The notes below the pieces were generated by a model that saw only the letters and a list, made by a program, of their open reading frames with translations, was not told the DNA's origin and searched no databases. Below, piece after piece: positions 19,040 through 25,204 of a stretch of 64,000 bases of DNA. Source of the stretch: Pseudooceanicola sediminis (GTDB lineage: Bacteria; Pseudomonadota; Alphaproteobacteria; Rhodobacterales; Rhodobacteraceae). Positions within the stretch are counted from its first letter, which is position 1. Every line of letters starts with the position of its first letter. The stretch lies in the NCBI RefSeq assembly GCF_003575965.1, contig NZ_QWJJ01000001.1, forward strand, positions 248,001-312,000. Direction: 5' to 3'. Position numbers and translations under genes: made by a program.

Positions 19040-20446
19040 ATGGAACAGACATCAACATTTCATGATCCGTCGCCGGTGGGCGCATCTCTCGACCGGCTGG
19101 CGGAAAATGCCGCCTCGCTCGGCCAGGAAGTGGTGGATGTCGAGGGGTTCCTGGAGGACCTGAACCAGCGCACGGGCGACCTGCTGGCCGAGCTGCGTAA
19201 TGTCCGCAAGGGCACCGGCACGGTGCTGCAGATGAACGCCAGTGTCATGGTCACCATCCAGGAGGCCTATGCCGAGCTTGAGCAGACCCAGGCGCGCTTT
19301 CTGGACGGTCACGCCAAGACCCGTCAGGCCGGTGAACTGGGGCGCCAGGTGACGGACTGGATCGACACTCTGGAACGGCGCACCGGCAACGTCGGGCAGA
19401 TCCTGACGGACGTACAGCAAAGCAACAATCAGGTGGCCGCCATCGCCACGCAGGTCAACATGCTGGCGATCAATGCCAAGATCGAGGCCGCCCGTGCAGG
19501 CGAGGCCGGCCGTGGGTTTTCCGTCGTCGCCGATGCAATCAATGCCTTGTCACAGCAGACCGGGGTCGCCGCCGACCTGATCAGCGAAAACGTTCAGCGC
19601 CTGGTGGACTGGATCATCCAGTTGCAAAAGGAAACCGGCAGTGTCGCGAAGACGTCGCAAACCCTGTCCGGTGTCAGCAAGATGTCGCAGGAATTGACGA
19701 TTCAGGTGCGTGACGCGCTTGATCTGACCGTCGGGCGCATGAAGCTGGTGCGCGACGATGCCGTCGAGGCAGACCGCGCCCTGCGTGTATTCTCTCCGCA
19801 AATCGAGGAGACCTTCAATATCGTGCGTGAGAGCGCAGACGCTGTGGCCGAAGTTCACGACAGGGTTCATGATCTGGTCGATTTGTCGGAAACGCTGGTA
19901 CAGGACAGCGTGATGGCCGGTGGTGGCGCCAGCGATCTGCCCCTGATCCGCGCGGTGCAGGCGCGCGCCAGCCAGATTACCCAGCTGTTCAATGACGCGA
20001 TAGACTCTGGGCGGATCAGTTTCGAGGACATGTTCGACGAGGAGTATCGCAGCATCCCTCGCACGAATCCCGAACAGCTGATGGCGCCGTTTACCGCGCT
20101 GACAGACTCGCTGCTGCCGGAAATACTGGAAACGGCGCTGGATCTGGATGAAAGGATCGTGTTTTGCGCCGCTGTCGATCGCAATGGCTATCTACCGACG
20201 CACAATCGCAAATTTTCCGAACCGCAGGGTGATGACCCCGTCTGGAACATGGCGCATAGCCGGAACAGGCGTATTTTCGATGACCGTGTCGGGCTGAAAG
20301 CGGGCCGCAACAAGACACCTTTCCTGATGCAGGTCTATCGCCGCGATATGGGCGGCGGAGAATTCATGTTGATGAAGGATCTCTCGGCGCCGATCTTTGT
20401 CAAGAATCGTCATTGGGGAGGTCTGCGCCTGGCGTTTCAGTTCTGA
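19040..20446 (+). CDS. Soluble methyl-accepting chemotaxis protein with C-terminal sensory module
   Basis: A 468-residue chemoreceptor with no membrane segment, so it should be cytoplasmic. The signalling hairpin tip is near residues 132-175 ([21 protein letters not shown]), much closer to the N-terminus than usual. The C-terminal third (about 330-468) is a separate globular module with DRNGYLPTHNRKFS, NRRIFDDRVGL and KNRHWGGLRLAF, a pattern met in cytoplasmic receptors of alphaproteobacteria. The ligand is unknown. A weak TTAA-N7-TTTG sequence lies 47-61 nt upstream. Confidence 0.85.
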   Translation: MEQTSTFHDPSPVGASLDRLAENAASLGQEVVDVEGFLEDLNQRTGDLLAELRNVRKGTGTVLQMNASVMVTIQEAYAELEQTQARFLDGHAKTRQAGELGRQVTDWIDTLERRTGNVGQILTDVQQSNNQVAAIATQVNMLAINAKIEAARAGEAGRGFSVVADAINALSQQTGVAADLISENVQRLVDWIIQLQKETGSVAKTSQTLSGVSKMSQELTIQVRDALDLTVGRMKLVRDDAVEADRALRVFSPQIEETFNIVRESADAVAEVHDRVHDLVDLSETLVQDSVMAGGGASDLPLIRAVQARASQITQLFNDAIDSGRISFEDMFDEEYRSIPRTNPEQLMAPFTALTDSLLPEILETALDLDERIVFCAAVDRNGYLPTHNRKFSEPQGDDPVWNMAHSRNRRIFDDRVGLKAGRNKTPFLMQVYRRDMGGGEFMLMKDLSAPIFVKNRHWGGLRLAFQF

Positions 20447-20552: not shown

Positions 20553-20580
20553 GCCGCCGCATCACTCGGGATGCGGCGGC
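20553..20580 (-). terminator. Terminator of the LexA-controlled micro-gene
   Basis: A ten-base-pair inverted repeat (GCCGCCGCAT / ATGCGGCGGC, loop of eight) is followed on the minus strand by ATTTTTGTTATTT-like sequence. It closes the short transcript that begins at the LexA operator near 20901. Confidence 0.88.
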
Positions 20581-20711
20581 CAGTGATGCAATGTCGCTTG
20601 GGACCAGACGCGGGTATCGGGAAGAGGCACTTCCGATCCTCGGGGACAGGCAATCCCGGAGGAAACCGCTGGGGAAGCGGCCGCGTCATGAACGACTTGC
20701 AGGCAGAAACC

Positions 20712-20834
20712 TCAGGTCAGGACAGGCAGGAACAGGGATCCGACCAGCAGAACGGTCAGCGCAATGGCGCCAAGCAGATCCTCTAGCAAAGTGGCACGAG
20801 AGCGCCTTGCGGCATTGAGAATATCGTTCAGCAT
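20712..20834 (-). CDS. 40-aa membrane micro-protein under a LexA operator (uncharacterised)
   Basis: A short frame coding for 40 residues. A basic, amphipathic N-terminus (Arg10, Arg11, Arg13) and acidic pair precede one hydrophobic helix at about 20-39 (LLGAIALTVLLVGSLFLPVL). The ATG at 20834 has a well-placed AAGGAA ribosome binding site; the same frame can be opened further upstream to 20927, but that would run through the LexA box. It has its own operator (20901-20915) and terminator (20553-20580). By design it resembles SOS-induced membrane peptides such as SidA of Caulobacter or TisB, without sequence similarity that I can recognise. Confidence 0.65.
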   Translation of the reverse strand: MLNDILNAARRSRATLLEDLLGAIALTVLLVGSLFLPVLT

Positions 20835-20900
20835 CGTCCAGTTCCTTTCCATCATCGCTAGTGTTGCTTCTTTGTTCTCACATAGATTGCCCCACGTAAA

Positions 20901-20915
20901 GAACTTTTTAAGAAC
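20901..20915 (-). promoter_or_regulatory. LexA box (GAAC-N7-GAAC)
   Basis: A perfect alphaproteobacterial SOS box as a direct repeat, GAAC followed by seven bases and GAAC (GTTC-N7-GTTC on the minus strand). A third GAAC follows six bases later (20922-20925). It lies 67 nt or more upstream of the ATG of the 40-aa gene and 40 nt past the recG stop. Confidence 0.8.
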
Positions 20916-20954
20916 ATAGGTGAACAAAGTGCGATTACTGGCGCGACAGAGGGA

Positions 20955-25204
<4,250 letters not shown>

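Follow-up and report, generated by a model that had tools for sequence, protein, structure and literature searches.

A putative LexA-controlled short gene beside recG in Rhodobacteraceae, predicted to encode a one-helix membrane peptide and followed by a conserved structured RNA

The stretch of DNA analysed here, hereafter the window, comprises 64,000 nucleotides of the Pseudooceanicola sediminis genome (Rhodobacteraceae). The original prediction had placed a complete minus-strand mini transcription unit between recG and a chemoreceptor gene in this window, and every part that it named is found in its place. The features of the locus are as follows:

20955..23042, minus strand: recG, a 695-aa frame directly upstream of the peptide gene on the same strand
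20901..20925, minus strand: putative LexA operator GTTC-N6-GTTC-N7-GTTC (sequence reading; box in 127/132 loci)
20896..20900, minus strand: conserved TTTAC, −35-like (consensus of box-selected loci)
20863..20877, minus strand: second operator-like element, GAAC-N7-CAAC (226/241 loci)
20843..20846, minus strand: Shine-Dalgarno-like AGGA (sequence reading)
20712..20834, stop included, minus strand: 40-codon gene for a predicted one-helix membrane peptide (profile, dN/dS, AlphaFold2)
20584..20707, minus strand: conserved structured RNA in the 3' UTR (covariance model R1, fold z, covariation)
20699..20706, minus strand: 5' single-stranded motif of the RNA, CUGCCUGC (enrichment of the 7-mer CTGCCTG)
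20553..20580, minus strand: intrinsic terminator, an 11-pair stem and then a T-run (covarying stem)
19040-20446, plus strand: chemoreceptor-like gene, convergent to the peptide unit

Read on the plus strand, the half-sites are GAAC at 20901-20904, seven nucleotides, GAAC at 20912-20915, six nucleotides and GAAC at 20922-20925, exactly the predicted GAAC-N7-GAAC box with a third GAAC 6 nt on; the proposed ribosome binding site is the AGGA at 20846-20843, and the proposed terminator the stem at 20580-20553, with its 11 pairs and T-run. The frame itself runs from ATG 20834 to TGA 20714-20712. Because in-frame ATGs at 20855 and 20852 also exist, giving 47 or 46 aa, the start at 20834 is likely but unproven; most relatives begin at the matching position, an agreement that is no proof, since their starts were chosen near the first profile position. 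The chemoreceptor-like neighbour recurs beside the locus in many genomes of the same genus and in only some others.

A short frame, and a terminator that by itself is about as frequent in shuffled sequence (1 observed, mean of 0.8 in shuffles), might suggest a chance frame beside a chance box, with no real gene. The locus exceeds chance because the box and the frame, in this position behind recG, are found again and again throughout a bacterial family. By tblastn (E up to 1), 34 of 61 relatives have the peptide, and a 22-row peptide profile (E up to 0.1) matched 349 of the 394 genomes searched in the family, a set with nearly one genome for each genus; conservation of the frame beyond close strains, on which the original prediction had staked its claim, is evident. 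Across the class, 30 of 385 genomes matched the profile, five of them from the family itself, and the 25 matches outside it are weak (best E 8e-4), 24 of them lying inside frames of at least 196 codons. The recG end could be located in 36 of the 45 profile-negative family genomes, and these loci retain an exact box within 400 nt in 23 cases and a short hydrophobic frame in 24; one is cut by a contig end and 10 have neither box nor peptide. After the recG of other families (27 genomes, with slightly different settings), a box within 600 nt and a short hydrophobic frame were each found once. Of the 69 peptide-bearing loci in the set L089-L158, 68 have the recG end upstream in the same orientation, and a tblastn search of plasmid and phage collections with one family peptide gave zero matches. 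The peptide gene appears to be a single-copy neighbour of recG that is common to marine Rhodobacteraceae and was previously overlooked.

The frame also evolves as a coding sequence. Synonymous and non-synonymous rates, a check named with the prediction, give dN/dS well below 1: 0-0.26 where computable in the 40 closest pairs among those listed, and a median of 0.24 for the 437 pairs that were usable and reached 60% identity, a figure that is biased downward by the choice of pairs by protein identity.

Upstream of the frame, an exact GTTC/GAAC-N7-GTTC/GAAC box lies within 200 nt in 127 of the 132 family loci with a profile match near their centre (133 were fetched, and the 132 include five repeat fetches of a single locus); the exceptions are L102, L131, L133, L144 and L147. 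In 119 loci selected by the box, the third GTTC is conserved at 0.89-0.96 per base, the distance from box to start is 67-115 nt, and the consensus reads GTTC-N6-GTTC-N7-GTTC-TTTAC, followed after about 11-12 nt by AATATGAGAACAAAGGGGCAACA. Further downstream, 18-32 nt past the box, GAAC-N7-NAAC is present in 226 of 241 loci, with C as the variable base in 208 of the 226; its counterpart in the window, GAAC-N7-CAAC at 20877-20863, had been overlooked in the original prediction and resembles an imperfect second LexA box. A sigma-70 consensus scan of the window returned zero promoters; between both operators (20863-20900, minus strand), the conserved TTTAC and AATATGAGAAC match no consensus sigma-70 promoter. 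We considered a conserved upstream open reading frame at a ATGAGAAC-like element (104 of 117 loci) and rejected it: the frames are of scattered length and in random phase to the peptide start, so that we take the element for operator or promoter.

The promoter pattern alone, built from the same set of family loci, was scanned against GTDB genomes and found at least 117 stretches; among the matches listed, 115 of 117 lie behind recG in the same orientation and 114 of 117 lead into the peptide (profile score >15), while the other three end at the edge of the fetched DNA, two of them showing the peptide start. Eighty of the listed matches come from genera that we take to be Rhodobacteraceae, or carry MAG labels of that or higher rank. 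Conservation extends jointly to the frame, its hydrophobic helix and the LexA box, as the 127 of 132 loci and the 114 of 117 listed pattern matches attest. The genome encodes its own LexA (G000:C35), and its lexA has a box of the same kind, GAAC-N7-GAAC (GAACATGTGTAGAAC), 35 nt before the MLTKKQ start, the frame as listed starting at an earlier TTG. LexA sites near recG have been reported before, in the part of a 2012 survey drawn on here (PMC3323433), which included Rhodobacter and Paracoccus; there the sites lie upstream of recG in some alphaproteobacteria, whereas the box described here lies downstream of it. Three LexA DNA-binding family matches each (E ≤0.001) occur in genomes G184, G267, G359, G363 and G429, perhaps extra LexA-like repressors. 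That the locus is a real gene under LexA control seems to us nearly certain; coincidence of frame and box is refuted by the profile matches in 349 of 394 genomes, the boxes in 127 of 132 loci, dN/dS, the 115 of 117 listed pattern matches and the covariation described below, and has a negligible probability.

The gene can be lost. Ten loci have recG with no box or peptide after it (L159, L161, L163, L169, L171, L173, L175, L177, L189 and L193), and seven of these ten genomes keep LexA, which was not found in G213, G240 and G030; the gene is therefore dispensable. Among near-complete genomes, a profile match is absent in 5 of 7 that lack LexA, as against 33 of 340 others (Fisher p 2.2e-4). This co-absence is weakened, however, because only for two of the five (G213 and G240) does the locus itself show the loss: in G346 a box and a diverged peptide are present, and recG was not found in G075 and G105. 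Two genomes that lack LexA, G196 and G206, have a peptide profile match. In a comparison of 14 genomes without the peptide and 18 with it, five of the latter counted by a diverged frame only, LexA is missing from 4 of the 14 and from none of the 18.

The C-terminal half of the peptide is hydrophobic, and AlphaFold2 predicts helices at residues 2-11 and 13-39 (mean pLDDT 91, pTM 0.50). In 76 aligned peptides, selected by promoter pattern and profile, D19, G22 and L34 are invariant, as is P37 in 74 of 74; none of the 76 has a charged residue after D19, and the N-terminal part has a mean charge of +1.4. Diverged peptides found by place break this invariance, with E for D19 in L143 and L170 and S for G22 in L166. 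An RNA motif as the source of the conserved Leu-Pro was ruled out, because the Leu-Pro codons vary (230 peptides). The hydrophobic moment is low, with a mean of 0.06 over the 76 peptides and 0.15 for the window peptide, and the helix is therefore probably not amphipathic. By its sequence, the 40-aa product would be a short inner-membrane protein under LexA. The original prediction had recognised no homology, and library searches agree: Pfam, NCBIfam, PHROGs, PADLOC and the PDB give isolated weak matches at most. The window peptide has zero Pfam matches at E up to 10; the sole Pfam match at E up to 0.01 was to DUF826, in 1 of 76 peptides (E 0.0077), and this, two PHROGs in 2 and 1 of 22 peptides (best E 0.042) and NCBIfam TIGR04207 (E 0.043, under the cut-off) were taken as chance. 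PADLOC matched 0 of 22 peptides, and a PDB search with the peptide returned none.

Short SOS-type membrane peptides offer one model. TisB of Escherichia coli is an SOS-induced short membrane peptide, and DinQ of the same species is described, in the portion of its literature drawn on here, as a toxic one-helix peptide under SOS regulation that is accompanied by antisense RNAs. A product of this type would lower membrane potential and slow growth, with the 3' RNA as an antitoxin-RNA pairing site or stability element; the single hydrophobic helix, LexA control and the DinQ precedent fit such a toxin, as do the extra operator half-sites, which are expected for a harmful product. The helix here, however, is probably not amphipathic, conservation at D19, G22, L34 and P37 is sequence-specific, and the libraries searched show no sequence relation to DinQ or TisB; upstream conservation fits operator and promoter, and by eye no antisense gene was noticed. 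We regard a toxin as unlikely.

A second model comes from SOS inhibitors of division. SidA of Caulobacter crescentus is described as a LexA-controlled inner-membrane protein of 29 aa that binds FtsW (PMC4211646, in part), and YneA (Bacillus) and ChiZ (Mycobacterium) are described as small membrane proteins that are induced by the SOS response or by damage and block division at a late stage (PMC13396833, in part), a kind to which SosA (Staphylococcus) also belongs; within these accounts, the one-helix SOS-induced proteins SidA and YneA act on the septal synthase (PMC4211646, PMC13396833). With SidA the peptide shares LexA control, a very short (here predicted) inner-membrane protein and an alphaproteobacterial host; FtsW binding is described for SidA only, and the peptide profile has no convincing match outside the family in the 385 class genomes. 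YneA carries an extracellular LysM domain, in contrast to the about 3-6 residues past the helix here. We favour the septal synthase as the target because of the analogy to SidA and YneA, the invariant polar and small residues, and the absence of SulA (PF03846) in 41 of 41 genomes searched. The peptide may well be a division inhibitor, at odds somewhat short of even.

The same small and polar residues, being conserved, point to a protein partner of some kind, and the peptide might instead modulate another membrane protein, in a DNA-repair or competence complex, a transporter, a protease or the lysis step of a gene transfer agent; in Rhodobacteraceae, LexA has been linked to competence and to gene transfer agents (PMC6473078, in part). 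No co-located partner other than recG was seen, however, and we judge such a modulator rather improbable.

The original prediction treated the locus as a stand-alone peptide gene, which stands for the gene but is too narrow for the transcript, for this also carries a conserved structured RNA. In 22 loci of the genus, nucleotide identity is 0.66 at 60-180 nt past the stop, a stretch that includes the terminator, versus 0.61 in the coding sequence. Of 241 loci, 226 have a terminator-like hairpin no more than 400 nt past the stop, in 219 cases at a distance of 100-250 nt. Relative to dinucleotide shuffles, the 3' UTR of the window has a fold z of -5.4, and 30 sampled relatives have a mean fold z of -4.2 (-8.0 to -1.3) relative to mononucleotide shuffles. 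The 7-mer CTGCCTG is found in 187 of 237 3' regions, as against ~8 in shuffles.

RNAalifold on MAFFT alignments recovered the terminator stem only, and we therefore turned to a self-versus-cross-species pairing test and a covariance model. The test used 181 of 219 RNAs, kept after removal of near-duplicates, which removes relatedness in part; n varies among stems, as anchors are missing in some RNAs. Stem halves pair better with their own partners than across species, with z of -20.5 for the closing stem (n=145), -9.9 for hairpin 1 (n=116), -5.6 for hairpin 2 (n=66) and -5.8 for hairpin 3 (n=56), versus -1.5 for random positions (n=181). Covariance model R1, made from 12 sequences, was run on 95 sources and gave 80 matches at E up to 1, of which 79 lie at the expected place by their coordinates and one lies off it (L048 183-326); at this threshold it missed 16 of 95 family loci. 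The window RNA matches at E 7e-4. Over the 80 rows, in an alignment fitted to the model, both partners vary in all 31 modelled pairs (436 cells vs 115 in shuffles), with 88.7% paired vs 37-46% in slid versions. Among 57 further loci, R1 matched 2 of the 20 diverged ones but none of the 27 from other families and none of the 10 losses. The refined model R2 matched 13 of 29 weak loci and 7 of 24 diverged ones, several of these matches at E 0.1-0.8, as well as 0 of 10 losses and, in other families, 1 of 25 (L211, weak at E 0.92); in the most diverged loci the RNA is recognised poorly. In whole genomes R2 matched 28 of 61, at one place each, many of these loci having also trained the model: 21 of 23 in the genus, 7 of 14 in the rest of the family and 0 of 24 outside it. 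Among the matches listed for 190 class genomes, R2 is found in three, all of the family itself, and 187 have no match. The absence of R2 outside the family is not strong, because these genome searches scored part of the first-look candidates (up to 54, later 17, per genome) under strict filters. Searches of Rfam gave only sub-threshold matches to ar7 (RF02342), a weak likeness over the 3' part of the RNA and the terminator, at 15.8 bits in the window and 25.8 bits in L003 (1 of 8 loci), against a threshold of 60. Rfam matches to the Yersinia sRNA Ysr141, at L033 87-346 (minus), L001 2917-2960 (plus) and L041 3033-3076 (plus), reach 20-28 bits against a threshold of 196 and are probably chance.

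CUGYCY motifs occur at 3.3 per RNA (220 RNAs), with a mean unpaired probability of 0.71 vs 0.36 for other C, U and G (80 sampled RNAs). Pairing of the 5' element with C-rich loops was considered and set aside as too variable. We are highly confident that the 3' UTR holds a functional RNA structure; whether this RNA acts in trans we would put, by analogy, at even odds. Its conservation, equal to that of the coding part (0.66 vs 0.61), and its covariation could mean that the peptide is secondary to the RNA as the main product or, in reverse, that the 3' structure serves only the stability and termination of the peptide mRNA. The purifying selection seen in the peptide argues against a by-product, however, and the conserved unpaired CUGYCY motifs against a plain stability hairpin, and to such one-sided readings we give little credence.

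A small-protein mRNA with a 3' RNA and terminator is described from the same family: the stress-induced ccaF1-CcsR1-4 transcript of Rhodobacter sphaeroides (CIN1, cuckoo RNA) has a 3' UTR with RNAs and a terminator, and CcaF1 is a 71-aa DUF1127 protein under RpoH control (PMC8625941, PMC10253847, both in part). The present unit differs from it in its membrane peptide and LexA operator. DUF1127 (Pfam) matched none of 76 peptides at E up to 0.01. The CcsR motif, which we take to be CCTCCTCC, was found in 0 of 220 RNAs in loops of the CCTCCTCC / CCUCCUCC type.

We favour, at a rough probability of 45%, a LexA-controlled bifunctional transcript that yields a membrane effector and a structured, perhaps regulatory, RNA. 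SOS control of the locus is read from its sequence, and the functions of peptide and RNA we infer. The short gene right after recG has a LexA operator in front of it, usually accompanied by a third GTTC and by a further operator-like element; LexA would repress it tightly, and RecA-triggered cleavage of LexA after DNA damage would release a burst of one short transcript. The peptide, whose coding nature is indicated by purifying selection, would sit in the inner membrane as one helix with its N-terminus inside and an acidic residue at the membrane entry. D-x2-G, L34 and P37 may make up the face by which it binds a partner in the membrane, most probably the septal synthase FtsW/FtsI; the invariance of D19, G22, L34 and P37, together with the lack of charge after D19, supports the favoured explanation. 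FtsW/FtsI would be kept inactive, and division would pause during DNA repair, as with SidA in Caulobacter. In the 3' UTR, the structured RNA, whose fold is supported by covariation, would display CUGYCY motifs in loops; it may be regulatory, perhaps cut from the 3' UTR like CcsR from the ccaF1 mRNA, with loops that pair with other RNAs or hold a binding partner. Beyond this, one transcript might couple a division-halting membrane effector to a trans-acting RNA that reprogrammes expression after damage, as a vertically inherited checkpoint of the Rhodobacteraceae, a proposal that we hold to be doubtful.

In the open-licence literature searched, we found no description of the peptide or the RNA, and none of an SOS division inhibitor of Rhodobacteraceae; an in-silico LexA survey of Dinoroseobacter shibae does not name such a gene in its abstract or the part of its text examined (PMC6473078). 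The peptide gene is small enough to slip past usual annotation, and the conserved structured RNA, which has no Rfam family, is under apparent SOS control. Rhodobacteraceae are among the commonest marine bacteria. For this family, with SulA absent in the 41 genomes searched, the locus is a strong candidate for an SOS checkpoint protein, and peptide and RNA share one place beside recG.
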